A stretch of 64,000 nucleotides of DNA, from assembly GCF_008727875.1 (NCBI RefSeq), contig NZ_VTWS01000003.1, positions 124,001-188,000 on the forward strand. The letters run 5' to 3'. Of this stretch, positions 1,192 through 24,245 are shown one piece after another; position 1 is the first letter of the stretch, and every line of letters starts with the position of its first letter. The translations under genes were made by a program, and so were the position numbers. The stretch comes from Larkinella humicola. Lineage in GTDB: Bacteria; Bacteroidota; Bacteroidia; Cytophagales; Spirosomataceae. A model generated the notes under the pieces. It saw only the letters and a list, made by a program, of their open reading frames with translations. It was not told the origin of the DNA and did not search any database.

Positions 1192-1210
1192 ATTACTCAA
1201 CAACGTTATG
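1192..1210 (+). promoter_or_regulatory. TACTCAACGTT start-codon motif, copy 1
   Basis: ATTACTCAACAACGTTATG ends in the ATG of the BY-kinase gene. Compared with the copies before ugd and the UDP-xylose synthase (TTTACTCAACGTTATG) it has three extra bases (ACA) in the middle. Function unknown; see findings. Confidence 0.45.
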
Positions 1211-3568
1211 ATCACAACTCCGTATGTTTACCACCAGCAGGAGGAAAAAGAACCTGACCTTCGGCTGATCCTCTTCCGGTATCTGAAAAACTGGAAATGG
1301 TTTCTGCTCTCGCTCGTCGTCGCGCTGGCCATCGGGTATGCGTACCTGCAATACCAGGTTCCGATCTACAAAGTACAAAGCAGTATTTTGATCAAGGACG
1401 AGAAAAAGGGGATTTCGGCGGACAACATCATGAAAGAAATGGATCTCTTCACGGATTCAAAGGTTGTCGAGAACGAAATCGAAATTCTGAAGTCCTATAC
1501 GATCATGGAGAAGGTAAACGACGCGCTGGCGCTGGATGTTTCCTATTTCCACGATACGCCGGTTGGCGAGCGCGAGATTTATAAAGATTCTCCGTTCCGC
1601 CTGGTTGTCGAACAACCCAAACCGCTGCTGTACGAAGATGGCTTCAAAGTGGAGTTTGTGGACCCTGCCACGGTTAAAATTGGGGAAAAGAAATATGCCG
1701 TTAACCAAAGTCTGAACACCGAATTTGGCCGGATCCGGATTTTCCCGAAAGCGGGTGCCAAGCTCGACAAAGAACCCGTTATTGTTCACGTGGCTCCCAA
1801 ACAGGAGCTTATTCAGAATTTTGTTGAAGATTTGAAAGTTGAAGCGACCAGCAAACAGTCAACGGTTCTGATCCTCAGCCTGGAAACTGCGGTACCCGAA
1901 AAAGGGCGTAACATCCTTGACAAAATTGTGGAGGAATACAATGATGCCGCTCTGAAAGATAAAAACCTGGTGGCAGCCAATACGCTGGATTTCATCGAAG
2001 AACGCCTGAAACTCATCTCTGGTGAACTCGCAACGGTGGAAAAAGATGTGGAAAGCTACAAATCAGCGGAAGGGATTACGGATATCAGTACCGAATCACA
2101 GATTTTTCTGCAAAACGTTCAGCAGAACGATGCCCAATTGAGCCAGGTCAATATTCAGTTGGGTGCCCTGGAAGACGTCGAAAAGTACGTTCGCAGTAAA
2201 GAGGGGGAACGAGGCTCTGCTCCTTCCACCCTGGGCCTGACTGATCCTACTCTTTTAGGGCTGATTGCCAAGGTGTCGGAACTGGAACTACAACGCGAAA
2301 CGCTGGTGAAGACCACCTCAGAAAACAACCCCATTCTGCGTTCACTGGACGAACAAATCCGGACTACCAAATCGAACATCACCGATAACATCCAGACGAT
2401 GAAGAACATCATGACGGGCACCCGCCAGAAGTTGATGGCTCACAATCGCAAGTTTGAATCGATGATCCGGTCGGTGCCGCGCAAAGAACGGGCGTTACTC
2501 GACATCACGCGCCAACAGGCCATCAAAAACAACCTGTATACCTACCTGCTGGCCAAACGCGAAGAAACCGCTCTTTCCTACGCTTCGGCCATTGCCGATA
2601 GCCGGACGATCGATATGGCTCGCAGTGGCAGCAAGCCCATTAAGCCCAAAAAGAGCATGATCTTTTTGCTATTCGGAGCGTTGGGCTTGTTGATCCCGGT
2701 TGGTGCTTTCGCTACCCGCGACATGCTGAACAACCGGATTGGTAAGCGCACGGATATTGAAGAGCTGACGAGTACGCCGATTGTCGGCGAAATCTCCTAC
2801 GCCAAGCATAAATTCCCGCTGGTGGTTACATCCAACAGCCGGTCGATTGTTGCGGAGCAGGTACGTGCCTTGCGAACCAATCTGCAATTCCTGCGATCCA
2901 ACAACGAGAGCCTCGCCATCCTGTTTACGTCCAGCATTAGTGGGGAAGGTAAATCGTTCATCTCACTAAACCTCGGAGCCAGCCTGGCCCTCATCGACCG
3001 TCCGACGGTTATTTTGGAAATGGACTTACGCCGTCCGAAATTGCACTCCATGCTGGACATGCCCAATACCGTCGGGATCAGCAACTTCCTGGTCGGTCAG
3101 GTAACCCTGGACGAAATTCTGCAACCCGTACCAGGCATGCAAAACTACTTCATCCTGACCAGCGGCCCCATTCCACCTAACCCGGCGGAGCTGCTGGTGA
3201 GTGACAAAGTCGATGATTTGTTTCACCAGCTTCGGGAACGCTTCCAGTACATCATCGTGGATTCACCGCCGATTGGTCTGGTTACCGATGCCCAGATCCT
3301 CGCCGACAAAACCGATGCGACCATGTACGTCGTCCGTCATGATGTAACGCCCAAGCAGCACATGAAAATGGTGGACGTCATGTACAAAGAACAACGCTTC
3401 CGGAAGTTGAGCCTGATTCTGAATTCAATCAATGAAGGAACCGGCTACGGATACGGCTACGGATACGGGTATGGCTACGGATACGGTTCCGGTGGCTATT
3501 ATGAACAGGACCCCATCGCCAAAAAATCCTTTCTGAAGCGGTTGCTGCCAGGCAACAAACCAGCCTAA
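1208..3568 (+). CDS. Polysaccharide biosynthesis tyrosine autokinase (Wzc-like BY-kinase)
   Basis: This inner-membrane polysaccharide co-polymerase and bacterial tyrosine kinase controls chain length and couples polymerisation to export. The 786-residue protein has an N-terminal Wzz domain, a first membrane helix near 31-49, a long periplasmic coiled-coil region (about 230-450), a second helix near 482-502 and a cytoplasmic kinase domain. Walker A (SGEGKS, near 578), Walker A' (EMDLRRP, near 605) and Walker B (YIIVDSPP, near 683) are intact. The tail holds a striking alternating Gly-Tyr run (coded at 3443-3500) that ends GSGGYYEQ and is the likely autophosphorylation cluster. A PHP-type phosphatase able to reverse this sits at the other end of the locus (24676-25416). 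Start chosen at the ATG inside the TACTCAAC..AACGTTATG motif. Confidence 0.95.
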   Translation: MITTPYVYHQQEEKEPDLRLILFRYLKNWKWFLLSLVVALAIGYAYLQYQVPIYKVQSSILIKDEKKGISADNIMKEMDLFTDSKVVENEIEILKSYTIMEKVNDALALDVSYFHDTPVGEREIYKDSPFRLVVEQPKPLLYEDGFKVEFVDPATVKIGEKKYAVNQSLNTEFGRIRIFPKAGAKLDKEPVIVHVAPKQELIQNFVEDLKVEATSKQSTVLILSLETAVPEKGRNILDKIVEEYNDAALKDKNLVAANTLDFIEERLKLISGELATVEKDVESYKSAEGITDISTESQIFLQNVQQNDAQLSQVNIQLGALEDVEKYVRSKEGERGSAPSTLGLTDPTLLGLIAKVSELELQRETLVKTTSENNPILRSLDEQIRTTKSNITDNIQTMKNIMTGTRQKLMAHNRKFESMIRSVPRKERALLDITRQQAIKNNLYTYLLAKREETALSYASAIADSRTIDMARSGSKPIKPKKSMIFLLFGALGLLIPVGAFATRDMLNNRIGKRTDIEELTSTPIVGEISYAKHKFPLVVTSNSRSIVAEQVRALRTNLQFLRSNNESLAILFTSSISGEGKSFISLNLGASLALIDRPTVILEMDLRRPKLHSMLDMPNTVGISNFLVGQVTLDEILQPVPGMQNYFILTSGPIPPNPAELLVSDKVDDLFHQLRERFQYIIVDSPPIGLVTDAQILADKTDATMYVVRHDVTPKQHMKMVDVMYKEQRFRKLSLILNSINEGTGYGYGYGYGYGYGYGSGGYYEQDPIAKKSFLKRLLPGNKPA
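3443..3500 (+). repeat. In-frame Gly-Tyr codon repeat in the kinase tail
   Basis: GGCTAC, GGATAC and GGTATG-like hexamers alternate about eight times and encode the Gly-Tyr tail. The unit is 6 bases, so slippage would change the number of tyrosines without shifting frame. It is coding, not an intergenic repeat. Confidence 0.8.
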
Positions 3569-3593
3569 TACAATACCAACTACTTGATGGATT

Positions 3594-3619
3594 CCCAACC
3601 GGTTTTACTCCCGGTTGGG
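3594..3619 (+). terminator. Stem-loop after the BY-kinase gene
   Basis: CCCAACCGG (3594-3602) pairs perfectly with CCGGTTGGG (3611-3619) around an 8-base loop. There is no T-run after it. Like three other copies of the TACTCAAC motif, the copy at 3641-3665 lies shortly downstream of such a hairpin. Confidence 0.55.
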
Positions 3620-3640
3620 AGAACATTGCCTAGTAACTCG

Positions 3641-3665
3641 TATTTACTCAACCTGGAACGTTATG
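3641..3665 (+). promoter_or_regulatory. TACTCAACGTT start-codon motif, copy 2
   Basis: TTTACTCAAC and AACGTTATG are both present but separated by CTGG, so the motif is split. The final ATG (3663) is the preferred start of the priming sugar transferase. Confidence 0.4.
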
Positions 3666-4319
3666 ATTAACCTGTTACAACCCGACTCCTCGTACTATGT
3701 CGTCAGTGAGACGGCTGCGGGAAAGCCACAGCCGGTAGCTAAGCGGGCCTTCGACATCACCGTATCCCTCTTGGTTGCCGTATTCATTCTATCCTGGTTT
3801 ATCCCCCTACTTGGGCTGTTGATCAGACTGGAATCGCGGGGGCCTGTCTTGTTCGTTCAGTTGCGATCGGGACGGAATGGACGGCCTTTCCCCTGTCTGA
3901 AATTTCGGACGATGAAATACCAGCGAAACGCTTCCTTCAAACAAGCGACCCACAACGATATGCGAATTACCCGGATTGGGCGAATTCTGCGAAAAACCAA
4001 TCTGGACGAATTGCCCCAGGTTCTGAATGTCATTGCGGGTCACATGAGCATCGTTGGTCCCCGCCCCCACCCGATTCCCCTCGATGTCCAGTATATGCCC
4101 CTCATACCGGAATACAAGCACCGGTTTGCGGTAAAACCGGGGATAACTGGTCTGGCCCAGTCGAAAGGACTGCGGGGCGAAACATCAGAACTCAACCAAA
4201 TGCGCCACCGGGTCCGCTACGACATCTGGTATACCAAATATACCTCACTTCCTCTGGATGTGAAGATCTGCTGGTGGACGGTAGAAAAAATGGTAAAAGG
4301 TGACAAAAACGCCCGGTAA
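3663..4319 (+). CDS. Priming sugar-phosphate transferase (WcaJ/WbaP type)
   Basis: This enzyme transfers a sugar-1-phosphate from a UDP-sugar to undecaprenyl phosphate and so starts repeat-unit assembly at the inner membrane. The 219-residue protein has one hydrophobic hairpin (FDITVSLLVAVFILSW onward) after a short cytoplasmic N-terminus, then the bacterial sugar transferase domain with KFRTM, RKTNLDELPQ and the SIVGPRPHP block. It is the short form without the N-terminal CoA-binding-like module of long WcaJ proteins. An in-frame ATG at 3615 would add 16 residues, but the ATG at 3663 follows the locus-wide AACGTT motif and gives the more usual N-terminus. The sugar used cannot be told from sequence. 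Confidence 0.9.
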   Translation: MINLLQPDSSYYVVSETAAGKPQPVAKRAFDITVSLLVAVFILSWFIPLLGLLIRLESRGPVLFVQLRSGRNGRPFPCLKFRTMKYQRNASFKQATHNDMRITRIGRILRKTNLDELPQVLNVIAGHMSIVGPRPHPIPLDVQYMPLIPEYKHRFAVKPGITGLAQSKGLRGETSELNQMRHRVRYDIWYTKYTSLPLDVKICWWTVEKMVKGDKNAR

Positions 4320-4356
4320 TAAGCGGTTTCAGACGCTCTGACAAGAAAAGATCCCT

Positions 4357-5301
4357 ATGACTTGTAGTATCATCATACGAGCCTTTAATGAAGAAGCTCA
4401 TATAGGCAAGTTGCTCAACGGCATCAAACAACAGGAAACCGGCACCGATCTGGAAGTGATTCTGGTTGATTCGGGTTCCAAGGACAATACCGTCCGCATT
4501 GCCGAAAGCTACGGAGCCAAAATTGTACGGATTCGTCCGGAGGAGTTCTCCTTTGGCCGGGCGCTTAACATTGGCTGCCAGCAGGCTTCGGGAGATATTC
4601 TGTTGTTTGCCAGTGCGCACGTCTACCCGGTTTATACGAATTGGATCGATCAAATGCTCAAGCCATTTGGAGATCAGAAAGTGGCCCTGACCTACGGGCG
4701 GCAGATCGGGAATCAACTCAGCAAATACTCGGAGCAACAATTGTTTGCCAAATGGTTTCCGGCGGTTTCCAACTACAACCAGCAAATTCCATTCTGCAAC
4801 AATGCCAATACGGCCATTCGGCGTTCGCTCTGGGAAGAGTTGCCCTACGACGAAACCCTGACCGGACTGGAAGATTTGCATTGGGCCAGCGAAATTTTAC
4901 AACGGGGTTACCGGATTGCCTATGATGCCGACGCCACCATTGTCCACGTCCACGAAGAAACGCCCCGGAAGATCTTCAACCGGTATTATCGGGAGGCCAT
5001 TGCGTTCAAACGACTGAAGCCGATGGCGCAGTTTGGTCTCTGGGATTTTGCCTACCTGTCCGTATCCAATCTGATCAGCGATTACGTAACCGCAGCCCAG
5101 GAGCGCGTTCTGTGGCAACACATTGCAGAAATCCCGGTTTTCCGCATCCTGCAATTCTGGGGAACGTATCAGGGATACCGTTTCGTCGGGACACTCGACC
5201 GGACCCTGCGGGAGCGGTTTTATTATCCGAATGAAGTTTTCAGGCGAGAGAAACCGGTGAGCCAGGAACCGGTAGTCATGAAACAAATCGCTTACGAATA
5301 A
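4357..5301 (+). CDS. Glycosyltransferase family 2 (rhamnosyl/galactosyl-type)
   Basis: A cytoplasmic inverting GT-A transferase that would add a sugar to the lipid-linked repeat unit. The N-terminus TCSIIIRAFNEEAHIGKLL and the nucleotide-binding VDSGSKDNT (near 42-50) are typical of GT2, followed by an FASAHVYP segment where the metal-binding motif would lie and ETLTGLEDLHWASEI, an ED-type catalytic-base region near 165-180. At 314 residues it has normal length. It lies 37 bases after the priming transferase in the same direction and probably acts early on the repeat unit. Donor and linkage are unknown. Confidence 0.88.
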   Translation: MTCSIIIRAFNEEAHIGKLLNGIKQQETGTDLEVILVDSGSKDNTVRIAESYGAKIVRIRPEEFSFGRALNIGCQQASGDILLFASAHVYPVYTNWIDQMLKPFGDQKVALTYGRQIGNQLSKYSEQQLFAKWFPAVSNYNQQIPFCNNANTAIRRSLWEELPYDETLTGLEDLHWASEILQRGYRIAYDADATIVHVHEETPRKIFNRYYREAIAFKRLKPMAQFGLWDFAYLSVSNLISDYVTAAQERVLWQHIAEIPVFRILQFWGTYQGYRFVGTLDRTLRERFYYPNEVFRREKPVSQEPVVMKQIAYE

Positions 5302-5336
5302 CCAGGCCGTCTTGCAAAACACTTAACGTTAACTAT

Positions 5337-6020
5337 ATGAAATACTCTGTTGCTGCTATCGTCCCCATGCGCCACTCCAGCGAGCGCGTGCCGGGCAAAA
5401 ACTACCGGGATTTTGCCGGTAAACCGTTGTTTCACCGCATTGTAGACACCCTGCTGGAGTGCCCTTCGATTACGCAGGTCGTCATCGACACCGACAGTCC
5501 GACGGTTATCGAACAGGTCGAAGAATTTTATCCGACCGTTACCGTCCTGGAGCGGCCCGAACACCTGCGCGACGGAGCCATTCCGATGAACAACGTTCTG
5601 CTAAATACCTGCAACCAGATTCCGGCCGATTTTTACCTGCAAACCCACAGCACCAATCCGCTCCTGTCGGCCGAAACCGTTGAGAAAGGCATTCAGCAAT
5701 TTCTGAAAAACTACCCGATTTACGATACGCTGTTTGGCGTTACCCGACTCCAGACGCGTTTGTGGGATCAGTTGGCGAGAGCCGTCAATCACAACCCGGC
5801 CATTTTGCTCCGGACGCAGGATCTGCCGCCGATTTACATGGAGAACTCCTGCATGTACCTCTTCAAAAAAGAAACGCTGATTCAAAAACATAACCGCATC
5901 GGTGACCGCCCCTTCATGTACGAGATTGCAGACATTGAAGCGCAGGACATCGATGTTGAACTGAATTTTAAAGTAGCCGAATTTCTGTTTACCGAACTTT
6001 ATCCTGAACTGGCCCTATGA
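5337..6020 (+). CDS. CMP-sugar synthetase (acylneuraminate cytidylyltransferase family)
   Basis: Members of this family activate 3-deoxy or sialic-type sugars with CTP, giving a CMP-sugar donor. The 227-residue protein starts SVAAIVPMRHSSERVPGKNY, the nucleotide-binding motif of NeuA/KdsB proteins, and has the FAGKPLF block, VVIDTDSP and an ETLIQKHNRIGDRPF segment near the C-terminus. It overlaps the next gene by four bases (ATGA), and that gene is followed three bases later by an SDR gene, so the three are probably translationally coupled and act on one sugar. No NeuB-type synthase is present in the window, so the substrate is unclear; it may not be a sialic acid. A cytidylate kinase is encoded in the opposing arm. 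Confidence 0.88.
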   Translation: MKYSVAAIVPMRHSSERVPGKNYRDFAGKPLFHRIVDTLLECPSITQVVIDTDSPTVIEQVEEFYPTVTVLERPEHLRDGAIPMNNVLLNTCNQIPADFYLQTHSTNPLLSAETVEKGIQQFLKNYPIYDTLFGVTRLQTRLWDQLARAVNHNPAILLRTQDLPPIYMENSCMYLFKKETLIQKHNRIGDRPFMYEIADIEAQDIDVELNFKVAEFLFTELYPELAL

Positions 6021-6961
6021 AAGTGTTGATTACCTGCCCTCCCATGCTCGGGCAACTTGCCGAATTCCTGCCCATTTTTGAAGAAGCGGGCATTGAAGTG
6101 ATTGCTCCGAAAGTCGTTCAGATTTTATCGGAAGAAGAACTGCTGGAACTCGTTCCAACCGTCGACGGCTGGATCATCGGCGATGACCAGGCCACCGAAC
6201 GCATCTTTCGCGCCGGAAAAGCCGGAAAGTTGAAAGCTGCCGTCAAGTGGGGAATTGGCGTCGATAATGTTGACTTCAAGGCGTGTAAGGAATTAGGGAT
6301 TCCCATTATCAACACCCCGATGATGTTTGGTGCCGAAGTGGCCACCATCGCGGTGTCTTACGTTTTGGGATTGGCGCGGCAAACGTATTACATCGACCGC
6401 GAAGTGCGGGCGGGCAATTGGGTAAAACCGGCGGGAATGTCGCTGGCTGGCCACACCGTCGCGCTCGTTGGTTTTGGCGACATCGGGAAAGCCACCGCCC
6501 GGTTTCTGAAAGCATTCGATATGCACATCAATGTGTATGACCCCTTTGCAAAACGGACGGAGGAAGACGAAGAAGCCTACCGCTTTCTGAACTTCCCCGA
6601 AGAACTGGAAACCGCCGATTTTGTGGTTTCGACCTGCGCCCTGACGCCCGCGACGAAACACCTGATCAATGCCGAATCGATTCAACGGATGAAAGACGGC
6701 GTTCGGATTGTGAACGTATCCAGAGGGCCGATTGTCGATGAAGCCGCTTTGCTGGAAGGTCTCAAGAGTGGCAAAGTTCACTCGGCTGGTCTGGATGTGT
6801 TTGAAACAGAGCCTCTGCCAATGGACTCGGAGCTTCGGAATTTTGACCGGTGCATTTTCGGAACCCACAACGGTTCCAATACCATTCAGGGGGTACGGCG
6901 TGCCAGTCACCAGGCGATTCGTTCGATGTTCGAGTTTCTGGAAATTGGTGTAACTGCGTAA
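6017..6961 (+). CDS. D-2-hydroxyacid dehydrogenase (phosphoglycerate dehydrogenase-like)
   Basis: A NAD-dependent dehydrogenase of the D-isomer 2-hydroxyacid family. The 314-residue protein shows the catalytic/Rossmann split arrangement: GMSLAGHTVALVGFGDIGKA gives GxGxxG near 155, with NVSRGPIVDEAALLEGLKSG around the catalytic Arg region, DVFETEPLP, and the catalytic His in FGTHNGSNT near 285. There is no C-terminal ACT domain, so it is unlikely to be the serine-pathway SerA. Its start overlaps the stop of the CMP-sugar synthetase, which points to oxidation or reduction of a precursor of a CMP-activated sugar. The exact substrate cannot be named. Confidence 0.85.
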   Translation: MKVLITCPPMLGQLAEFLPIFEEAGIEVIAPKVVQILSEEELLELVPTVDGWIIGDDQATERIFRAGKAGKLKAAVKWGIGVDNVDFKACKELGIPIINTPMMFGAEVATIAVSYVLGLARQTYYIDREVRAGNWVKPAGMSLAGHTVALVGFGDIGKATARFLKAFDMHINVYDPFAKRTEEDEEAYRFLNFPEELETADFVVSTCALTPATKHLINAESIQRMKDGVRIVNVSRGPIVDEAALLEGLKSGKVHSAGLDVFETEPLPMDSELRNFDRCIFGTHNGSNTIQGVRRASHQAIRSMFEFLEIGVTA

Positions 6962-6964
6962 ACG

Positions 6965-7693
6965 ATGAAAAAAATACTGATTACAGGGGTTCTAGGCGGT
7001 ATTGGCAGTGCACTGGCACTTGCCTTTCGCGAAGCCGGCTATTACGTGTACGGGCTGGACATTCAGGCATCGGAACATCACCAGGCCGACCGTCTGATCC
7101 AGTTCGATCTTCATCAGTTCAGCACGAATGAAGCCTACCGAAACGAGTGGAAACACACGTTCAATGTGCTGATCCCGGAGCTTCACGTTCTGATCAACAA
7201 TGCCGCCGTGCAAATGCTCGGTAGCCTGGATGAATTAAAGCTGGACGACTGGAATCATACCATGACCGTCAACCTGACCGGTCCGCTGCTGCTTAGCCAG
7301 CACTTTCTGGAGCAACTGGAAGACGTAAACGGCAGCATTATCAACATTGGCAGCATTCACCAGCAACTGACCAAACGCCGGTTTATTAGTTACGCCACCT
7401 CGAAAAGCGCCCTTATTGGCCTGACCAGAGCCTTAGCCGTCGATTTGGAAGGCCGGGTGCGGGTCAACGCCATTAGCCCTGCAGCCATCGAAACCGATAT
7501 GCTGCTGGCCGGATTCGACGGGAATCAGGGTGCCCTGGATGAACTCCGCAAGATTCACCCCGTACAACGAATCGGGCGCCCGCAGGACGTCGCCACGATG
7601 GCGTTGTTCCTGGCGTCGGAGAACTCCGGTTTTATTCACGGAGCCAATCTGTCGCTGGATGGCGGTATTAGTTCGGTCTTGAAGGATTTGTAG
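6965..7693 (+). CDS. SDR-family oxidoreductase, CMP-sugar module
   Basis: A classical short-chain dehydrogenase/reductase of 242 residues. The cofactor site ILITGVLGGIGSALALAF (near 4-20), the NNAAVQ segment (near 78), the catalytic Ser in NIGSIHQQ, and YATSKSAL (Tyr and Lys of YxxxK, near 142) are all visible, as is the AISPAAIETDM loop. It starts 3 bases after the hydroxyacid dehydrogenase gene. SDR proteins next to cytidylyltransferases are known from nonulosonic-acid loci (PtmA-PtmB in Campylobacter), which fits a role in making or modifying the CMP-linked sugar; the reaction is an inference. Confidence 0.87.
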   Translation: MKKILITGVLGGIGSALALAFREAGYYVYGLDIQASEHHQADRLIQFDLHQFSTNEAYRNEWKHTFNVLIPELHVLINNAAVQMLGSLDELKLDDWNHTMTVNLTGPLLLSQHFLEQLEDVNGSIINIGSIHQQLTKRRFISYATSKSALIGLTRALAVDLEGRVRVNAISPAAIETDMLLAGFDGNQGALDELRKIHPVQRIGRPQDVATMALFLASENSGFIHGANLSLDGGISSVLKDL

Positions 7694-7713
7694 AGTACCC
7701 ATAAATCAATAGT

Positions 7714-9174
7714 ATGTTGCCACTGGAAATACAACGGAATTCAGCGATCACGCGTCTTTGGCACTCCCCGACCTTTACGACTTGGGCGAGTCTGGCGACA
7801 CGTTCCATGAATTTGGTGCTGCTGATTCCGTTCATTCTCCGGCAATTCAGCCCGGCCGAGATTTCATTATGGTATCTTTTCAGCACAGTCATCAGTTTAA
7901 ACCTGATGATTGATCTGGGATTGGGTGTCACATTTTCCAGATTCATTGCCTATGCCATGGGCGGAGCAAATGGAACAGATACTACAGAAAAGCCAGTAGA
8001 CAGGGATCATGAGTCAGGTCCTAATCAATCCTATTTATTGAAAGTGGTTGGAACACAGCAGATTCTATTCGCGTGGTTGACCGGGTTAGTGTTTCTGCTG
8101 TTAGTAATCGGGGGAACCCTTTCGGTATACCGTCCAATCCATTTTCTTTCTAACCCGAATCAGGGGTGGATCGCCTGGAGCATCGTAATCGTTGCCACAA
8201 CGGTTACGTTTCGCGGTAACGCCTACACGACTTATTTGCAGGGAATCAATCGGATTGCGGAGTTCCGCCGGTACGAAACACTATTTTCACTAGCAGCTAT
8301 TCTCACTAGCGTGGTGATGCTGTACTTCAATGCCGGGTTAGTTGGACTGGTAGCCGTTAACCAATTGTGGAACATTTTATCGGTTTTACGGAATCGCTGG
8401 ATGTGTTACCAGTACAACGAAGGCGTGTTCGTGTCGGGCCAGTCATTCAAATTTGATCGGGCCATTTTGAAGGAAATCTGGCCAGCCGCCTGGCGAAGTG
8501 GGATTGGCGTGCTGATGTCCTATGGTCTCATTCAAAGCAGTAGCCTCATCTACGCACAAAGCAACCAGGTTGAGCAGGTTTCCGCCTACCTATTTGCCAT
8601 GCGCATCATGCAGATCATCATCACCTTCGCACAGGCACCTTTCTACAGCAAACTTCCTCTGATGGCTCGTCTATACGCACAGGATAACCGCCAACAGATC
8701 ATCGAGGTGGCTCAAAAAGGAATGCAAAGAGCTCATTGGACGTTTGTAGCGGGCTTTGTTGGAGTGGCATTACTCGCAGAACCGGTAATGCAGTTAATTG
8801 GCAGCAATATTCATTTTATTGACCAGCGACTCTGGGCGATCATGGGAATTGCCTTTTTTGTGGAGCGCTATGGGGCTATGCACTTACAGTTATATAGCAT
8901 CACAAATCATATCGTTTGGCATATTGCGAATGGCTTTACCGGAATCATTTATATCATGCTGGCACTAGTAGCCTACCCCTTAATAGGCGTGCTTGCTTTT
9001 CCTTTAAGCATGTTAGCTGCCTATCTGGGGTTTTACTCCTGGTATTCTACCCTTAAGTCGTACGCTGCCTTCAAATTGAATTTCATAACATTTGAATCGA
9101 AACAATTAGTAATTCCATCACTTATTTTATTAGTTATTGCGTTGAATTCCATCTTTCACACTGTTAAGATCTAG
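7714..9174 (+). CDS. Wzx-like polysaccharide flippase
   Basis: A multi-spanning inner-membrane protein of the MOP/PST superfamily that would flip lipid-linked repeat units to the periplasm. The 486-residue sequence has about 12 hydrophobic segments, starting SPTFTTWASLATRSMNLVLL and AEISLWYLFSTVISLNLMID, with the DLGLGVTFSRFIAYAMGG stretch common in such transporters. It stands between sugar-activation genes and the polymerase, the expected place. Its stop codon overlaps the next start (TAGTG at 9172-9176). Base composition begins to fall in GC through this gene. Confidence 0.85.
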   Translation: MLPLEIQRNSAITRLWHSPTFTTWASLATRSMNLVLLIPFILRQFSPAEISLWYLFSTVISLNLMIDLGLGVTFSRFIAYAMGGANGTDTTEKPVDRDHESGPNQSYLLKVVGTQQILFAWLTGLVFLLLVIGGTLSVYRPIHFLSNPNQGWIAWSIVIVATTVTFRGNAYTTYLQGINRIAEFRRYETLFSLAAILTSVVMLYFNAGLVGLVAVNQLWNILSVLRNRWMCYQYNEGVFVSGQSFKFDRAILKEIWPAAWRSGIGVLMSYGLIQSSSLIYAQSNQVEQVSAYLFAMRIMQIIITFAQAPFYSKLPLMARLYAQDNRQQIIEVAQKGMQRAHWTFVAGFVGVALLAEPVMQLIGSNIHFIDQRLWAIMGIAFFVERYGAMHLQLYSITNHIVWHIANGFTGIIYIMLALVAYPLIGVLAFPLSMLAAYLGFYSWYSTLKSYAAFKLNFITFESKQLVIPSLILLVIALNSIFHTVKI

Positions 9175-10556: not shown

Positions 10557-10579
10557 AGTCCACCTAATCGAGAACAAAG

Positions 10580-11389: not shown

Positions 11390-11401
11390 TAAATATAAAA
11401 A

Positions 11402-12622: not shown

Positions 12623-12646
12623 CAACTAATTAAAATAGTAAAATCC

Positions 12647-13426: not shown

Positions 13427-13447
13427 TCACTATAAATATCCAAAACA

Positions 13448-14737: not shown

Positions 14738-14751
14738 TAACTCTTATTTAC

Positions 14752-15957: not shown

Positions 15958-16016
15958 ACCACATACTGATATAGTCCTGAATACTCGGATATAAAACTTA
16001 TTTAACTTCGTGTACC

Positions 16017-16100: not shown

Positions 16101-16137
16101 ATAATAGTCGTATACACTACTTTAATTATCACGAATT

Positions 16138-17244: not shown

Positions 17245-17279
17245 TCGTCATAAAATCAGCATGACAGGGCTGTTTACCC

Positions 17280-18761
17280 TCAATGCCACACTTTTTTAAA
17301 GCTGATCAATCCTCCTATCGCATCATTATAGAGATCTCCCTGGTCCATTGCCAGATTGATTCCCAGGAACCCGCCACCGAGCCAACTCACCGGAATATTT
17401 AATCGTATTAAGCTGGAGGATTGCGTTACACTTCCTGGAAAGCGTTTCCAGTGTGTTCCATAATTACTGCTTAACGAAAATCGCCCTTCAACTGTTACAC
17501 CAGATCGTAGCTCGCCGAGAACGGCGATATGGTACAGTGAAACAAGGCTATTATTAATCATACTCCCCTGGTTTTTTTTAGATGGAGTTAAATGCGTATC
17601 CCATTCCGGCTTGGTGTCCTTATATCTTGTAATAAATGGGGTTCCAATGATCCGTTCTTTTACGGCCCACCCGTCAATATATTGAATATTATTAAAGTAG
17701 TCATCCATTCCGTCATATTTGCGGCTGTCTATTTTCACCGTTGCGCCACTTTGATCTCTGGTCGTTAAGTATTCAACCGTAATCGTTTTTAACTTAAAAA
17801 ACGGGTTGGGCTGACCCGATACGTTTTGAATTCGAATACCGTATAGTCCATCCGGCAAATTAACAAGTGCCAGCCCCGACTTATCCTCGAAGGGGTGTTG
17901 ATAATAGCCCAGAATCCGATATTGCTTGATCGAAATTTCCGTTCCTATATCTATGTTCCCCAAATGGTTGCCAAATCGATTGACAGCATCCGGGAAGGCA
18001 TAATCACCTGCATTTGATGGCTGACTGGCCGTTATAACGGCTAAATAGGTTTTGAATGAAGACGGAATTACTCCGCCAACGGCCTGATTGGATGATAAAT
18101 ACTTCGACTTCCCTCCCCATTGCGCATTATGAAGAAACCCCCCATACAATTTCACCTTCCAATTCGGTTTTCCAATGCGGCCATACAGGGCCTTTTGGTG
18201 CAAATAAGAATTCTGGATTGAATCTGTATTCGGGAACCAGCCATGCGCAAAAAAGGCGTTAATCGAAATCAAGCCTTTGGTAAACTTTAAAGGAGCATAC
18301 CCATTTGTTCCAAGCTGGATCTTGGTGATGGGTAATGCATTGCCCGACCACGAATAAGATCCGGATGAAAGAGTGGTATCCACCAAACCTAACACTTCTT
18401 TCCGACGGCCCACCACTAGTTCAATGGAGCGGTAGCCAATTTTTGCGTACGCTTCCGGCACCAAAAGCCGGTTATTGGGACCAGCATATCCTACTACCTC
18501 AGCGCCATACCCGAAATGCCACCCTTTGCCTGTGCTGTCTACCCTAAACACGCCTGAACTTCCCAACCGGACTGTTCCGGCAGGAGCTATCAACGGCACA
18601 GTCCCAAATTGATTGGCTCGCAGCCAAAACGGCGTTCGGCGAGCCGATGAAGCCATGCCACTTACTTCGGCTGAAACCTGAACGGATGAGACGGGTTTCT
18701 GTGCGTAAAGGGGGCAACTCACTAAAAAAAGGAGAATAAGGGTGCAGAATGGTGCTTTCAT
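17280..18761 (-). CDS. Wzi-family capsule assembly outer-membrane protein
   Basis: An outer-membrane beta-barrel protein involved in surface attachment of capsule. The 493-residue protein has a Sec signal peptide (MKAPFCTLILLFLVSCPLYA, cleavage before QKP), then VSAEVSGMASSARRTPFWLR, the start typical of Bacteroidota Wzi homologues, with GRRKEVLGLVD and repeated amphipathic strands to the C-terminus (FKKVWH). It is the last gene of the minus-strand arm, 45 bases after the cmk gene. Its presence suggests that at least part of the polymer stays cell-bound as a capsule. Confidence 0.87.
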   Translation of the reverse strand: MKAPFCTLILLFLVSCPLYAQKPVSSVQVSAEVSGMASSARRTPFWLRANQFGTVPLIAPAGTVRLGSSGVFRVDSTGKGWHFGYGAEVVGYAGPNNRLLVPEAYAKIGYRSIELVVGRRKEVLGLVDTTLSSGSYSWSGNALPITKIQLGTNGYAPLKFTKGLISINAFFAHGWFPNTDSIQNSYLHQKALYGRIGKPNWKVKLYGGFLHNAQWGGKSKYLSSNQAVGGVIPSSFKTYLAVITASQPSNAGDYAFPDAVNRFGNHLGNIDIGTEISIKQYRILGYYQHPFEDKSGLALVNLPDGLYGIRIQNVSGQPNPFFKLKTITVEYLTTRDQSGATVKIDSRKYDGMDDYFNNIQYIDGWAVKERIIGTPFITRYKDTKPEWDTHLTPSKKNQGSMINNSLVSLYHIAVLGELRSGVTVEGRFSLSSNYGTHWKRFPGSVTQSSSLIRLNIPVSWLGGGFLGINLAMDQGDLYNDAIGGLISFKKVWH

Positions 18762-18806
18762 AACGGATAGGGCAATATGGGTTAACTATCTTCCCATGGT
18801 GAGAAG

Positions 18807-19592
18807 TTAAGCTTCCATTGACTTAGAATATTCCCGGTGCAATTCGCTCGTAATGGTCAGATAAGCTTGTTGAACAACCCATTCCACCTGTCCGGCGATG
18901 GATAGGTGCGAGGTGTCCAGAAGCTGGGCATCCGACGCCTTTCGTAAGGGACTTTCGGTGCGGGTCGTATCGAGATGGTCCCGCTTTTCAAGATTTTGAG
19001 CGATTTCGGCCAATTCAACCTGCTCTCCTTTAGCCTGCAGTTCAATGCGTCGGCGTTCCGCCCGAACCAGTGAATCAGCAGTCATGAATACCTTCAGCTC
19101 AGCATGCGGAAAAACATGCGTACCGATGTCGCGCCCGTCCATTACGATACCCCGGTTGTGACCAAGTTTTTGCTGTAGCCCCACCATGGCCTTCCGTACG
19201 TCAGGAATAGCACTAACTTCCGGTACAGCATTCGCTACCGGAAGTTTGCGGATTTCTTCTTCTACATTCTGTCCATTCAAATGCGTTTGAATCGTTCCGG
19301 TTTCCGGGTCACCTTCAAACGTGATGTGAATTTTTGCAAGCGCTTCCCGTACCGCTTTTTCACTCGCAAGATCGATTTTGTGCTGAATGAAATACAACGT
19401 GACCGCCCGGTACATGGCCCCGGTATCGATGTAGGTGTATCCCAACTGGACAGCAACCTGCCTGGCCGTCGTGCTCTTGCCACAGCCGGAGTGCCCGTCA
19501 ATAGCGATGATAATTTTAGTACTGCCGGAGAAAGTATTTACGGGAGTTGCTCTGTGAAACTGATAGGAATCATTGATAAGGCCCATATCCAT
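18807..19592 (-). CDS. cmk: Cytidylate kinase
   Basis: (d)CMP kinase, converting CMP and dCMP to the diphosphates with ATP. KIIIAIDGHSGCGKSTTAR holds the P-loop (GHSGCGKS), DTGAMYRAVTLYF the NMP-binding region, GRDIGTHVFPHAELKVFMTA the LID-proximal block, and RTESPLRKASDAQLLDTS the C-terminal motif. At 261 residues it carries about 25 extra N-terminal residues (MDMGLINDSYQF..) compared with usual Cmk; a second ATG lies at 19586. It sits between gmd and wzi in a polysaccharide arm and has the TACTCAACGTT motif upstream, so it may also recycle CMP released by a CMP-sugar transferase. That link is an inference. Confidence 0.92.
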   Translation of the reverse strand: MDMGLINDSYQFHRATPVNTFSGSTKIIIAIDGHSGCGKSTTARQVAVQLGYTYIDTGAMYRAVTLYFIQHKIDLASEKAVREALAKIHITFEGDPETGTIQTHLNGQNVEEEIRKLPVANAVPEVSAIPDVRKAMVGLQQKLGHNRGIVMDGRDIGTHVFPHAELKVFMTADSLVRAERRRIELQAKGEQVELAEIAQNLEKRDHLDTTRTESPLRKASDAQLLDTSHLSIAGQVEWVVQQAYLTITSELHREYSKSMEA

Positions 19593-19602
19593 ACCGATTA
19601 AA

Positions 19603-19614
19603 AACGTTGAGTAG
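19603..19614 (-). promoter_or_regulatory. TACTCAACGTT motif, copy 3 (cmk)
   Basis: CTACTCAACGTT on the minus strand, here 10 bases before the first possible ATG of cmk rather than touching it. It follows the gmd terminator hairpin by about 37 bases. Confidence 0.45.
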
Positions 19615-19639
19615 CTGCTATTCCAATCAGGCAGATAAG

Positions 19640-19690
19640 CAAAAAAGGAAAGAGATCACGAACCCGATTTAGTCTGCAGTTCGTGATCTC
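19640..19690 (-). terminator. Terminator of gmd
   Basis: On the minus strand GAGATCACGAAC (from 19690) pairs with GTTCGTGATCTC (19663-19652), followed by TTTCCTTTTTT. This is a 12-bp perfect stem with a U-rich tail 8 bases after the gmd stop. Confidence 0.75.
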
Positions 19691-19697
19691 CAAGGGG

Positions 19698-20810
19698 TTA
19701 CTCAAAATAATTCAGCACCAAATGACCGCCTTCAGCCAGCAACTGGTCGCGACGGAACAAGTCGATGTCAGCCGTCATCATGTCTTTTACCAGCGCAGCC
19801 AGGTCATATTTCGGCTGCCAGTTCAGTTTGGTCATGGCCTTCGTCGGATCACCCAGCAGCAGATCCACTTCCGTCGGGCGGAAATACCGCTCGTCGATGC
19901 TCAATACTTCTTTGCCGACTTCGACCGGGTAATCCGGGTTCGACGCACTCACCACAAACGCCCGCTCGGCCACACCTTCGCCCCGGAATTCCAATTCGAC
20001 GCCAATCTCGGCAAACGCCATCCGGACAAAATCACGGATTGAGGTGGTGACACCGGTGGCAATCACGAAATCTTCCGGTTTTTCCTGTTGCAGAATCAGC
20101 CACATGGCTTCTACATAGTCTTTGGCGTGGCCCCAGTCGCGCAGCGAGTCAATGTTGCCCAGAAACACCTTGTCCTGCAAACCCAGACCGATCCGGGCCA
20201 CAGCGCGGGTGATTTTGCGCGTTACGAACGTTTCGCCCCGCAGCGGTGATTCGTGGTTAAACAAAATACCGTTGCAGGCATACATGCCATACGCTTCGCG
20301 GTAGTTGACCGTAATCCAGTAGCCGTATAGTTTGGCAACGGCATAGGGCGAACGCGGGTAAAACGGCGTCAATTCCGATTGGGCATGACCCTGCACCCCG
20401 CCGTATAATTCGGAAGTAGATGCCTGGTAAATGCGGGTTTTTTCGGTCAGACCCAACAGCCGGACGGCTTCCAGAATGCGGAGTGTACCAATGCCGTCGA
20501 CCTGGGCGGTGTATTCCGGCTCATCAAAACTCACCCGCACGTGCGACATGGCACCGAGGTTATAAATTTCGTCGGGCTGCACTTCCTGAATAATCCGGAT
20601 GATGTTGGTCGAATCGGAGAGATCGCCAAAATGGAGCTTGAACCGTACATTCTTTTCGTGCGGATCTTCGTATAAATTGTCGATCCGCTGCGTATTGAAC
20701 AAGGAACTCCGGCGTTTGATACCGTGTACTTCATATCCTTTTTCTAATAATAATTCGGCCAGATAGGCGCCATCCTGCCCTGTAATACCGGTAATAAGTG
20801 CTTTTTTCAT
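19698..20810 (-). CDS. gmd: GDP-mannose 4,6-dehydratase
   Basis: Makes GDP-4-keto-6-deoxymannose from GDP-mannose, the first committed step to GDP-L-fucose. The 370-residue extended SDR shows [20 protein letters not shown] (GxxGxxG), [19 protein letters not shown] (the NADP-binding RRSS block), the catalytic Ser/Thr in [13 protein letters not shown], and Tyr/Lys in [33 protein letters not shown] is the usual substrate-binding block. GDP-fucose synthase lies 39 bases upstream in the same operon. Length and motifs are standard for the family. Confidence 0.97.
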
Positions 20811-20849
20811 ACGTACGGAATTAGCTGTATTCGAAAGATTATCGTGTGA

Positions 20850-21788
20850 TTAAACGTAGACTTCCTGGTGGTTCAGAAAATCCTGATAGGTCGTGGTAAT
20901 ACCGGTTTTCAAATCGGTTTGGTGTTGCCAGCCCAGGGTATGCAGTCGCGAAACATCCATAAGTTTGCGGGGCGTCCCGTCCGGTTTGTCGGTATTCCAG
21001 CGAAGTTCGCCTTCAAAGCCAACGGTTTCTTTCACCAGCTCGGCCAGTTCGCGAATCGTGACGTCCTCCCCGGTCCCGATGTTGACAAACAATTCATCGT
21101 TGTAGGTTTCCATCAGAAACACGCAGGCATCGGCCAGGTCATCGGCGTGCAAAAACTCCCGGCGGGGCGAACCCGTTCCCCAAACCTCAACGAAGGGCTG
21201 GTTGCTGATTTTCGCTTCGTGGAATTTTCGAATCAAGGCCGGCAACACATGCGACCCCTGAAGATCGTAGTTATCATTCGGGCCGTAAAGGTTGGTCGGC
21301 ATTGCCGAAATAAAATTGCAGCCGTACTGGCTCCGATACGCTTCGCAGAGCTTGATGCCGGTAATTTTAGCAATGGCATACGGTTCGTTGGTCGCTTCCA
21401 GATACCCGCTGAGCAGGTATTCTTCTTTCAACGGCTGCGGAGCCAGCTTGGGATAGATGCAGGAGGACCCCAGAAACAGCAGTTTCTCAACCCGGTTTTG
21501 GTAGGCACTGTGGATAATGTTAGCTTCGATCAGCAGGTTATCGTACAGAAAATCGGCCCGGTACGTATTGTTGGCCCAGATACCGCCGACTTTGGCAGCC
21601 GCTAGAAAGACGTAATCCGGTTTTTCGTCGGCAAAAAAATCAGCGACGGCCGCCTGGTTGCGCAGATCCAGTTCCGACGAGGTCCGGGTAATAACTTGCT
21701 GGTACCCTTTGGCTTGTAGCGAACGAACCAGAGCCGACCCCACCATGCCCCGGTGTCCGGCAACGTATATTTTGTCTTGTTTCCTCAT
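20850..21788 (-). CDS. fcl: GDP-L-fucose synthase
   Basis: Epimerase-reductase that turns GDP-4-keto-6-deoxymannose into GDP-L-fucose. The 312-residue SDR begins [20 protein letters not shown], followed by [20 protein letters not shown], the catalytic Ser-Ser-Cys in [17 protein letters not shown], and Tyr/Lys in [33 protein letters not shown] and [15 protein letters not shown] are also typical. It precedes gmd in transcription order. Together they indicate that fucose or another sugar from the GDP-6-deoxyhexose branch enters the polymer. Confidence 0.96.
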
Positions 21789-21833
21789 TAATGATAGCTA
21801 TTCGTTCAGCAAAATCCTTTTTCCTGCCCTTAA

Positions 21834-22814
21834 TCAACGCACCGAAAATTCCCGGTGATAAGCGGCCTTGTACAGTTCTTCTTCCGGCAGATTTTTGAAG
21901 TAATCGTAGGTAATCCGCAAGCCTTCTGCCCGCGATACTTTCGGCTCCCAGTCTAAAATGGCTTTCGCTTTGGAAATATTCGGCTGGCGTTGTTTGGGGT
22001 CGTCGGTCGGCAGCGGTTTATAAACCACCTGCTGGCTGGTGCCGGTCAGCTTGATGATCTCTTCGGCAAATTCTTTGATGGTTATTTCAACGGGATTGCC
22101 AATGTTGACCGGAGACGGATAATCGCTCAGCAGCAGGCGGTAAATTCCCTCGACCAGATCATCGACGTAGCAGAACGAGCGGGTCTGGCTGCCATCTCCA
22201 AAAATAGTCAGGTCTTCGCCCCGCAAAGCCTGGCCGATGAAAGCGGGTAAAACCCGGCCGTCATTCAGTCGCATCCGCGGACCGTAGGTGTTGAAAATGC
22301 GGACAATCCGGGTCTCCAGACCGTGGTAGGTATGATAGGCCATCGTCATGGCCTCCTGAAACCGCTTGGCTTCATCGTATACCCCACGAGGACCGACCGG
22401 ATTGACATTGCCCCAATATTCTTCGGGCTGGGGATGAACCGTTGGATCACCATAGACTTCCGACGTGGAAGCAATCAGCACCCGCGCGTTCTTGACCCGC
22501 GCCAAACCCAGGCAATTGTGAATCCCGAGGGAGCCGACTTTCAGCGTCTGAATCGGGATTTTCAAATAGTCAATGGGGCTGGCCGGCGAGGCAAAATGCA
22601 GAATGTAATCGAGTTCGCCCGCAACGTGGATAAACTGCGATACATCGTGGTGGTGAAATTCGAAGTTCGAAAGGGGGAACAGGTGCTCAAGATTGCGGAT
22701 ATCGCCGGTAATCAGGTTATCCATGGCAATGACATGGTATCCTTCCTTGATAAATCGATCACAGAGGTGTGAGCCCAGAAAGCCAGCCCCACCCGTTATC
22801 AGAATGCGCTTCAT
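21834..22814 (-). CDS. UDP-glucuronate decarboxylase (UDP-xylose synthase)
   Basis: An extended SDR that would decarboxylate UDP-glucuronate to UDP-xylose. The 326-residue protein starts [20 protein letters not shown], has [20 protein letters not shown], the catalytic [10 protein letters not shown], and [16 protein letters not shown] (Tyr/Lys), where most homologues have [25 protein letters not shown] and [18 protein letters not shown] are hallmark blocks of UXS enzymes. The gene directly follows ugd, which makes its substrate. A tiny frame (ATG-AAA-CTT-TTC-TAG, 22838-22824) attached to the AACGTTATG motif precedes the true ATG at 22814. Confidence 0.93.
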
Positions 22815-22823
22815 GTAAGACGA

Positions 22824-22838
22824 CTAGAAAAGTTTCAT
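22824..22838 (-). other. Four-codon mini-ORF before UDP-xylose synthase
   Basis: The ATG of TTTACTCAACGTTATG here opens Met-Lys-Leu-Phe-stop and not the gene itself, whose ATG is 9 bases after the mini-ORF stop. It could be a leader that controls translation, or a relic of a former start. I cannot tell which. Confidence 0.3.
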
Positions 22839-22851
22839 AACGTTGAGTAAA
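22836..22851 (-). promoter_or_regulatory. TTTACTCAACGTTATG motif, copy 4
   Basis: An exact 16-base match to the copy before ugd. It begins directly beyond the ugd-uxs hairpin (22853-22883) and ends in the ATG of the mini-ORF. Confidence 0.5.
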
Positions 22852-22852
22852 G

Positions 22853-22883
22853 CTGGCGGGCTGAACGATCATCAGCCCGCCAG
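22853..22883 (-). terminator. Hairpin between ugd and UDP-xylose synthase
   Basis: CTGGCGGGCTGA pairs perfectly with TCAGCCCGCCAG around a 7-base loop. The following bases are CTTTACTC, so it is at most a weak terminator; partial read-through to the next gene is likely. Confidence 0.6.
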
Positions 22884-22900
22884 TACGAATGAGCGACCGA

Positions 22901-24232
22901 TCAGGCCGTCTGTTCCACCCCTTGCGAGATGGTTTCCCGACCAACGCTGTAGTAGGTGTAGCCTAATTCTTTCATCTGGTCCAGTTCGTAGAGATTCCGT
23001 CCGTCGAAGATGACTTTGTTTTTCAGCAGCAGGTTCATTTTGCTGAATTCCGGCGTCCGGAACATGGGCCATTCCGTCATAATCACCAGGGCATCGGCAT
23101 CATCCAGGGCAGCATACGACGTATGGGCGTACGTAATTTTGCTACCAAATACGTTTTTCACATTGTCCATCGCTTCCGGGTCGTAGGCCGTCACTTTCGC
23201 GCCGGCATCCAGCAGCGCCTGGATGTTTTCCAGCGCCGGTGCTTCCCGGATGTCGTCGGTATACGGTTTGAACGCCAGCCCCCATACGGCAATGGTTTTT
23301 CCTTTCAGGTCGCCGTTGAAGTGCTGGTTGATAATTGGAAGGAGTTTGGTTTTTTGCTTCGCGTTGACGTCCATCACCGATTTCAGAATCTGGAAATCGT
23401 AGTCGTATTCCTGGGCGGTTTTCGCCAGCGCCTGCACGTCTTTCGGAAAACAGCTTCCGCCGTAGCCAATCCCGGCGAACAAAAACCGTTTGCCGATGCG
23501 GCTGTCGGTGCCAATCCCTTTCCGGATGTCGTCGACGTTGGCCCCTGCTTTTTCGCAGAGGTTGGCAATTTCGTTCATAAACGAAATCTTAACGGCCAGG
23601 AACGCGTTGGCGGCATATTTGGTCATTTCGGCCGACCGTTCGTCCATGAAAATCACCGGATTACCCTGACGGACCAAGGGCGCATACAGTTTGCTCATCA
23701 CGGCTTTCGCGCGTTCTGACTTGGTGCCGATCACCACCCGGTCGGGTTTCATGAAGTCTTCGATGGCAACGCCTTCGCGGAGAAATTCAGGATTCGACAC
23801 CACGTCGAACTCCACCTGCGCACCCAGCGAAATGTAGTCGTGCACTTTTTCGGCGGTTCCCACCGGCACCGTACTTTTGTCGACAATCACGGCATACTCT
23901 TTCAGCAATTGCCCCAGATCACCGGCCACTTTCAGGATGTATTTCAGATCGGCGGAACCGTCTTCGCCCGGCGGGGTGGGCAGGGCCAGAAAAATAACCT
24001 CGGCACCTTCGATGCCTTCGGCCAGGCTGGTCGTGAATTTCAGACGACCTTCGGCGGTGTTGCGGTTAAACAACACGTCCAGACCCGGTTCGTAGATGGG
24101 GATGATGCCGTTGATGAGCTTTTGTACTTTGCGCTCGTCAATGTCGACACAGGTGACCTGGTTGCCGGTTTCGGCAAAGCAGGTTCCGGTTACGAGTCCA
24201 ACGTAACCGGTTCCAACAACAGCAATTTTCAT
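22901..24232 (-). CDS. ugd: UDP-glucose 6-dehydrogenase
   Basis: Oxidises UDP-glucose twice with NAD to give UDP-glucuronate. The 443-residue protein begins MKIAVVGTGYVGLVTGTCFA (Rossmann GxGxxG), has IFLALPTPPGEDGSADLKYI, VDKSTVPVGTAEKVH, NPEFLREGVAIEDFMKPDRV, the catalytic Cys in GIGYGGSCFPKDVQAL, and KTIAVWGLAFKPYTDDIREA. All three domains are complete. It is followed by UDP-xylose synthase and starts exactly at the ATG of a TTTACTCAACGTTATG motif. The long AT-rich region upstream probably holds the promoter of the minus-strand arm. Confidence 0.97.
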   Translation of the reverse strand: MKIAVVGTGYVGLVTGTCFAETGNQVTCVDIDERKVQKLINGIIPIYEPGLDVLFNRNTAEGRLKFTTSLAEGIEGAEVIFLALPTPPGEDGSADLKYILKVAGDLGQLLKEYAVIVDKSTVPVGTAEKVHDYISLGAQVEFDVVSNPEFLREGVAIEDFMKPDRVVIGTKSERAKAVMSKLYAPLVRQGNPVIFMDERSAEMTKYAANAFLAVKISFMNEIANLCEKAGANVDDIRKGIGTDSRIGKRFLFAGIGYGGSCFPKDVQALAKTAQEYDYDFQILKSVMDVNAKQKTKLLPIINQHFNGDLKGKTIAVWGLAFKPYTDDIREAPALENIQALLDAGAKVTAYDPEAMDNVKNVFGSKITYAHTSYAALDDADALVIMTEWPMFRTPEFSKMNLLLKNKVIFDGRNLYELDQMKELGYTYYSVGRETISQGVEQTA

Positions 24233-24245
24233 AACGTTGAGTAAA
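24230..24245 (-). promoter_or_regulatory. TTTACTCAACGTTATG motif, copy 5 (ugd)
   Basis: The minus strand reads TTTACTCAACGTTATG, with the final ATG being the ugd start codon. Identical over 16 bases to copy 4. Confidence 0.5.

Follow-up and report, generated by a model that had tools for sequence, protein, structure and literature searches.

The window, by which we mean the whole 64,000-nucleotide stretch of the Larkinella humicola genome analysed here, holds an exopolysaccharide locus in which a short repeated element stands on, or just ahead of, the starts of several genes. The exact form of the element is the 14-mer TACTCAACGTTATG, and its gapped form was searched as TACTCAAC-N0-8-GTTATG. 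The five genes that it accompanies most clearly, with their Pfam matches, are as follows.

22901-24232, minus strand: ugd, UDP-glucose dehydrogenase (PF03721, PF00984, PF03720)
21834-22814, minus strand: uxs-like NAD-dependent epimerase/decarboxylase (PF16363/PF01370), the specific name being that of a first-pass annotation of the same DNA
18807-19592, minus strand: cmk, cytidylate kinase (PF02224)
1208-3568, plus strand: Wzz/BY-kinase (PF02706, PF13807)
3663-4319, plus strand: priming sugar transferase (PF02397)

A repeated element at polysaccharide gene starts

The first-pass annotation had placed the element at ugd (24245-24230, minus strand), in the uxs leader (22851-22836, minus), at cmk (19614-19603, minus), at the BY-kinase (1193-1210, plus) and at the priming transferase (3643-3665, plus), and all five sites are where it put them. 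Its account of the start codons is also correct: the ATG of the element is the gene start at ugd, BY-kinase and priming transferase, it opens the four-codon frame MKLF* in the uxs leader, and at cmk the element ends 10 nucleotides 5' of the ATG. Intergenic hairpins are visible by eye ahead of four of the five sites. The window contains four copies of the gapped pattern, where 100 shuffles gave none; the complete 7.86-Mb genome has six copies, four of them in the window, and four copies of the exact 14-mer, two of them in the window. The gapped-form copies outside the window lie at C16:608036 and C11:1582333. The former is an exact copy on the ATG of a 195-residue open reading frame with no Pfam match, and near matches precede some unrelated genes elsewhere, so that the earlier statement that no such string stands before genes outside the locus is true of the window but not of the genome.

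Looser forms of the element carry little information. An 11-mer with two mismatches is found at chance level in the window (20 seen against 15), and only near-exact forms are therefore meaningful. The half-word ACTCAAC was dropped as evidence, being unexceptional among its own permutations: it is more frequent than expected ahead of starts outside the window (15 seen, 2.8 expected) and ranks 10th of 140 words made of the same letters. Many A/C-rich words are enriched ahead of the 1389 starts outside the window, and ATGAAAA is a frequent gene start.

A candidate small RNA gene and its family

The copy at C11:1582333 is not ahead of a gene; the opposite strand carries a predicted small RNA gene.

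C11:1582281-1582362, minus strand: putative small RNA gene of about 70 nucleotides, outside the window on another contig, near 1.58 Mb

On its own strand this gene reads TATATTTG-CATC-GAAAAGAAAAGTTTTTCATAACGTTGAGTAAATCAG-AAAGCC(hairpin)GGC-TTTTTTG, that is, a TATATTTG box which we take to resemble the Bacteroidota -7 element, a short 5' hairpin, an open stretch, and a GC hairpin followed by TTTTTTG as an intrinsic terminator. The predicted RNA would begin near GAAAAGAAAAG, and its largely unpaired seed is CAUAACGUUGAGUAAAUC; the element at the polysaccharide genes is the reverse complement of this seed. The 70-nucleotide RNA has a folding energy of -22.5 kcal/mol (z -4.25; 1 of 200 shuffles does as well), and its centroid fold leaves the seed open. 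Upstream on the same strand lies an ABC-ATPase gene (Walker motif found by script), presumably lolD, and beyond it a divergent gene that we take for sucC from its first residues. The genes adjoining the small RNA (L006, C11:1580182; L016, C11:1581343; alpha/beta hydrolase, radical SAM) start with the imperfect target words TAATCAACGTTATG and GACTCAAGGTTATG, and in genome G003 the word TAATCAACGTTATG is likewise found 2.3 kb from the RNA gene.

Two other identities were considered for the C11 locus. A coding reading as a small frame (MKNFSF...) was rejected, since the frame has 11, 16, 17 or 42 codons within the genus and stops after 6 at L082. As for a known RNA family, Rfam at its gathering score gave no match for eight RNA loci and none for the window, and the only two sub-threshold matches (E 0.77 and 2) were taken as chance.

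A search for the 22-nucleotide core GTTTTTCATAACGTTGAGTAAA in a public set of 84,980 species retrieved 79 copies in 78 contigs, mostly from named Spirosomaceae genera (Spirosoma, Larkinella, Runella, Dyadobacter, Fibrella, Fibrisoma, Rudanella, Persicitalea and others), along with some metagenome bins named to higher rank. The core was the search key and its own invariance is thus selected for. A scripted test for a terminator (hairpin plus T-run) was passed by 77 of the 79 copies, and the other two have, by eye, a hairpin with a short T-run. The core is retained with differing upstream regions and terminators. Fifteen loci, chosen for carrying the 14-mer, were aligned and used to build a covariance model; for 9 of the 18 consensus pairs, one or more sequences differ at both partners, and double changes affect 10 of 18 pairs in an alignment of 34 type II copies (defined below). 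The model finds one copy at E <1e-21 in each of nine same-genus genomes and, in two of them, a second with E no higher than 1e-12; a second copy in G008 was found by direct reading. At E 0.01 it matches in all 121 family genomes; the weak matches are taken for plain terminators and were not counted.

The 79 copies divide into 36 of type I, which have GAAAAGAAAA before the core, and 43 of type II. Every type I copy (36/36) has a TAnn[ACT]TTG box directly ahead of the RNA, those of Spirosoma and Larkinella among them, and the right flank of the core, TCAGAAAGCCA, is conserved too. An ABC-ATPase motif lies upstream of 28 of the type I copies and of 17 of the type II copies. Near the core of 34 type II copies stands TGT[GAT]AC-N15-17-NGT[CA]; the strict form GTGAC-N16-18-CGTC occurs in 17, all but one with spacers of exactly 16 and 11 nucleotides, and was never produced in 200 shuffling rounds. 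The arrangement TGTGAC-N16-CGTC, which we take to resemble a promoter for an extracytoplasmic function (ECF) sigma factor, recurs at a fixed distance in many type II copies (L287-L364) from Runella, Dyadobacter, Persicitalea and others. Eight Runella genomes have two copies each, with identical cores and different terminators, and there are more among the model matches listed. A contig labelled Flavobacterium sp. SUN052 (L340) carries a type I copy much like those of Rudanella-type contigs, and may be either wrongly labelled or the holder of a transferred copy. Taken as a whole, the predicted gene has a promoter-like box, an intrinsic terminator and a conserved, mostly unpaired seed.

Predicted pairing at start codons and its conservation

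The candidate target sites of the small RNA in the window are listed below with their predicted pairing.

24226-24246, minus strand: ugd; unbroken run of 21 Watson-Crick pairs with the small RNA, spanning -14 to +7 relative to the ATG at 24232; -28.5 kcal/mol, the strongest of 1444 starts
22826-22851, minus strand: uxs leader; pairing runs past the MKLF* ATG into AAACTTTTCT; -34.1 kcal/mol when a longer 5' part of the RNA is used, -23.9 when scanned genome-wide
19603-19614, minus strand: cmk; 10 nucleotides before the ATG; -16.5 kcal/mol, matched by 18 of 1389 outside-window genes
1193-1211, plus strand: BY-kinase (Wzc-like); 3-nucleotide bulge, ATG at 1208; pairing retained in 9/9 same-genus orthologs
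3643-3666, plus strand: priming sugar transferase; 7-nucleotide bulge, ATG at 3663; pairing retained in the 7 orthologs read, of 9 that exist
5320-5339, plus strand: CMP-sugar synthetase, weak site CACTTAACGTTAACTATATG; -16.8 kcal/mol, matched by 14 of 1389 outside-window genes
338-352, plus strand: wza-like export gene, weak site ATCACAACGTATGAA at the start; -16.2 kcal/mol, matched by 22 of 1389 outside-window genes

The energies were ranked against crude gene calls over 2.0 Mb of the genome (open reading frames of at least 100 residues, chosen greedily, first ATG). Of 1518 genes called, 74 were dropped for want of a suitable ATG in their first 30% or for a start near an end, which leaves 1444, 55 of them in the window. 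The starts of ugd, the uxs leader, the transferase and the BY-kinase rank 1, 2, 4 and 6 (tied). All of the seven strongest window genes are polysaccharide genes (ugd, uxs, transferase, BY-kinase, CMP-sugar synthetase, cmk and wza-like), each matched by at most 22 of the 1389 genes outside. The weaker forms of the element already suspected at the wza-like and CMP-sugar synthetase genes are, together with cmk, beaten or equalled in pairing strength by just 14-22 of those genes.

Among relatives the predicted pairing is kept through differing layouts. BY-kinase orthologs in all nine Larkinella genomes pair at -18.2 to -21.9 kcal/mol with a bulge of 3 nucleotides in six genomes, 2 in two and none in one; 11 of 25 further BY-kinase matches were read and are without the pairing (-5.8 to -12.1). 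The transferase start, read in seven of nine genomes, pairs at -19.8 to -21.8 with 7 or 8 nucleotides between the half-sites. Window-type ugd was read in eight genomes, six of which have the exact site. The other two, G001 and G004, possess several ugd copies, of which the one in the BY-kinase region was taken; it carries TTTATTCAATGTTATG, with two C-to-T changes that preserve G-U pairs (-23.3), and another G004 copy, on contig C4, is without a site (-8.8). Ungapped identity at ugd is 0.88 within 16 nucleotides of the start against 0.47 just upstream, and at the BY-kinase 0.74 against 0.53, a step that a group of six paralogous BY-kinases does not have (0.88, 0.85). Across the family, 30 ugd loci were cut and 22 starts are visible: 6 with the exact site, 1 with the wobble form and 15 without.

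The uxs leader offers a further comparison. The stretch AAACTTTTCT after the element is complementary, with a 2-nucleotide offset, to the 5' part of the RNA. Summed over seven leaders (six uxs-type and one cmk, two of them, from G000 and G002, being sequence-identical), this extension pairs at -53.1 kcal/mol; 2000 shuffles average -16.0, and the lowest of them reaches -31.3. In G004 the leader has TTATAAACTTTT instead of TTATGAAACTTTT, by which the ATG of the mini-frame is lost and the pairing (-25.4) is kept; the four-codon frame is thus not the conserved feature. Locus L245 (G006:C3:142404) shows a uxs-type leader with an exact site and no uxs frame in the stretch read.

Counts of the exact word extend this beyond single genes. 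The nine Larkinella genomes hold 31 copies of the 14-mer and none of the reversed word; 12 of these belong to the RNA gene, 12 to ugd, uxs or cmk sites (among them one G006 uxs-like leader with no uxs frame behind it), 2 to starts near BY-kinase genes and 5 lie elsewhere. In the 121 family genomes the ratio is 142 to 4. Among these 142 words, 96 fall in the RNA-gene model matches listed; of the other 46, 43 belong to the 57 genomes that have the word in their RNA gene and 3 to the 64 others. The test used 109 model matches among those listed, down to about E 3e-7; weak RNA-gene copies, of which L375 looks to be one, may therefore make up a few of the 46. We read 42 of the 46 sites: 23 have an ATG that begins a frame of 190 codons or more, some of these frames extending beyond the stretch, whereas in 2.0 Mb of the own genome this holds for 63 of 401 GTTATG strings (binomial P ~7e-9, a figure that related sequences inflate). 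A further 10 lie 14-189 nucleotides ahead of a gene start.

Outside Larkinella, sites of polysaccharide type are those at a GDP-mannose dehydratase and in two leaders upstream of ugd, the latter 151 and 189 nucleotides from the start in two genomes. Others stand at genes for a Na/H exchanger, a MacB-type permease, a CHASE3 sensor, a LytTR regulator, a Crp-like regulator, a 3-hydroxyacyl-CoA dehydrogenase and a PLC-like protein. Given this variety, the word does not in itself mark exopolysaccharide genes; the exopolysaccharide locus of Larkinella is its main holder. Two further sites, L008 1501-1560 (own C17:205218, one mismatch) and L086 1501-1550 (G004:C2:967604, exact), have the target word directly before a same-strand hairpin and T-run and contain no long frame; such an arrangement would be suitable for an RNA acting as a decoy of the small RNA.

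Interpretation and comparison with known systems

We consider it highly probable that a trans-encoded small RNA, probably a repressor, has the element as its target site; its predicted targets in Larkinella are centred on the exopolysaccharide genes and not confined to them. At the level of sequence, support comes from the anatomy of the RNA gene, its conservation, its complementarity to the target genes and the retention of that complementarity. The complementarity to messengers of distant loci appears to have been kept in evolution beyond chance, and transcription, repression and the direction of the effect are inferred. The first-pass annotation had envisaged a regulator site, a processing site or a translation-start element defining an exopolysaccharide regulon. 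What survives of this is the view of a regulatory element that sits at translation starts and flags polysaccharide genes; the pairing site of a small RNA suits it better than a binding site for a protein, a processing site or a stand-alone start signal. Polysaccharide genes are not its only holders, as exact sites also stand on unrelated gene starts, both in its own genome and in other genera.

Several observations weigh against this interpretation. The RNA was found by way of the motif, which makes the ranking of window genes partly circular; the extension and evolution tests are less so. Measured against 60 shuffled seeds, the total of strongly pairing starts is not significant: 3 real starts reach -22 kcal/mol (shuffled mean 0.37, maximum 4), 5 reach -20 (mean 1.57, maximum 10) and 8 reach -18 (mean 6.6, maximum 21). 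Counts at an energy cut-off fail to separate real from shuffled seeds, and we therefore rely on conservation and co-occurrence. In the lowest-energy fold, a weak three-pair helix lies within the seed. Taken singly, three of the seven leader extensions miss significance (p 0.059, 0.060 and 0.19), none of 14 ugd starts outside the genus has a site within about 50 nucleotides, 13 of the 109 model matches are without the exact word, 9 of the 42 non-RNA sites are not near a gene start, and the counts are inflated by related sequences. Nor was a chaperone found: a search for Hfq matched 0 of 39 genomes, our own included (the control was positive in 5 of 14 named genomes), and an RRM_1 protein was found in 0 of 9 Larkinella genomes by a search that was positive in two of three same-order genomes and in the control Bacteroides ihuae.

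Among the alternatives, a DNA-binding regulator could read the word as a double strand both at the target genes and inside the RNA gene, since the 14-mer is common to the two kinds of place and a duplex site is free of orientation. Such a protein would have to tolerate half-spacings that vary among orthologs (for the BY-kinase 0, 2 or 3 nucleotides, for the transferase 7 or 8) and a site on or just before the start codon. Leader pairing that extends into the 5' part of the RNA and an RNA core kept despite different upstream regions and terminators also speak against it, C-to-T changes at ugd that keep G-U pairs would be meaningless to it, and we hold this explanation very unlikely. A single-strand RNA-binding protein could instead recognise ACUCAACGUU in the messengers, the antisense copy being coincidental. 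The word does lie on the messenger strand at the orthologous target genes read; its exact reverse complement, however, forms part of the seed of the conserved RNA gene in 9/9 same-genus genomes, where a chance 14-mer is expected about 0.03 times per genome (4 reversed matches in 121 genomes), which leaves this the most improbable of the explanations considered.

That the element is merely the ordinary A/C-rich, G-poor start context of Bacteroidota, with no specific regulator, would account for the enrichment of ACTCAAC and of other same-letter words outside the window and for the frequency of ATGAAAA starts. It does not account for the excess of the 14-mer over its reversal, nor for the full word tracking the RNA gene when only its A/C-rich half is generally enriched, nor for bulged forms conserved at single genes; its probability appears very small indeed. 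A small RNA that activates, for instance by opening leader structure at uxs and cmk, is a somewhat more serious contender and still an unlikely one. The uxs and cmk sites are upstream of the annotated start and after a visible hairpin, an arrangement that fits either sign, but at ugd, BY-kinase and transferase the duplex would cover the start codon, which goes with repression in GibS and FopS (PMC7366714, PMC11697453).

In the favoured interpretation of a repressive small RNA, the transcript would be made from the C11 gene and its seed would pair over about 14-21 nucleotides across the start codons of ugd, BY-kinase and priming transferase, and just ahead of the start at uxs and cmk. The duplex would block ribosome loading and lower exopolysaccharide synthesis; repression is suggested because GibS and FopS pair at start codons and repress. 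The long seed may compensate for a missing Hfq or RRM chaperone, and the type II promoters hint at envelope stress as the signal. A bolder and more tentative proposal, for which we would claim less than even chances, is that the family-wide RNA acts with neither chaperone as a standing 'anti-start-codon' module. In its 22-nucleotide core it would combine a specificity word with the complement of ATGAAAA, and genes would be recruited by evolving TTTACTCAACGTTATG over their starts: much of the exopolysaccharide locus in Larkinella, and in Runella and Dyadobacter, where the core would be under an ECF-type promoter (and multiplied in Runella), a different gene set silenced under envelope stress.

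If true, this would be an undescribed small RNA family present in many Spirosomaceae genera, with a readable target code in the form of a near-exact word over starts, and sequence alone would suffice to predict part of its regulon, in bacteria that gave no Hfq match. It would provide a clean system for studying chaperone-free action through a long seed and the drafting of genes into a regulon, and it would place a post-transcriptional switch on exopolysaccharide synthesis in Spirosomaceae. The open-licence PMC literature yielded nothing on this RNA, nor on such an exopolysaccharide switch in this group.

A separate feature of start regions deserves mention. Arrays of period 7 (TAACTCT/TAACTCA, ACCGTAA, CATTCAT) lie up to about 50 nucleotides upstream of some start codons, in places after GCGTCAGCCA. 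In the window one occupies 35150-35209, before the open reading frame at 35210-36181 (plus strand), and others are at C13:212355-243556, C15:302119 and C11:432986 of the own genome. Their words have a strong sense bias upstream of starts (CTTAACTC, 17 sense and 0 antisense; AAACCGTA, 29 and 3), and in TAACTCT or ACCGTAA arrays the 7-nucleotide period places TAA in all three frames.

Enterobacteria place envelope-stress small RNAs under ECF sigma factors, and the many type II copies behind TGTGAC-N16-CGTC, a box whose likeness to an ECF promoter we presume, recall that arrangement; the Larkinella copy by the ABC gene differs in having the TATATTTG box instead. Nearer systems exist within the Bacteroidota. 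The predicted targets of Rfp18 from Flavobacterium psychrophilum, a genus-conserved small RNA, are functionally related, as they are here; they are proteases and an adhesin, the pairing region lies in a stem-loop, and two target messengers fall when Rfp18 is deleted (PMC9723704). The multicopy FopS family acts as a repressor of SusC-type importers, and the RNA-binding protein RbpB counteracts it (PMC11697453). FopS resembles the present RNA in a common seed, in several copies per genome in some lineages (here Runella) and in pairing near the starts of surface-glycan genes, with repression reported for FopS; it differs in its partner RbpB, the Larkinella genomes having given no RRM_1 match. GibS of Bacteroides thetaiotaomicron pairs across the start codons of its targets, represses them and binds in vitro without a protein cofactor; its targets are metabolic genes (PMC7366714). 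Like GibS, the predicted RNA is a trans-encoded Bacteroidota RNA with an open, extended 5' seed over start codons; its main conserved targets as predicted in Larkinella are exopolysaccharide genes. The RNA described here, set beside GibS by description and not by sequence, belongs to Spirosomaceae and is built on a conserved 22-nucleotide core.

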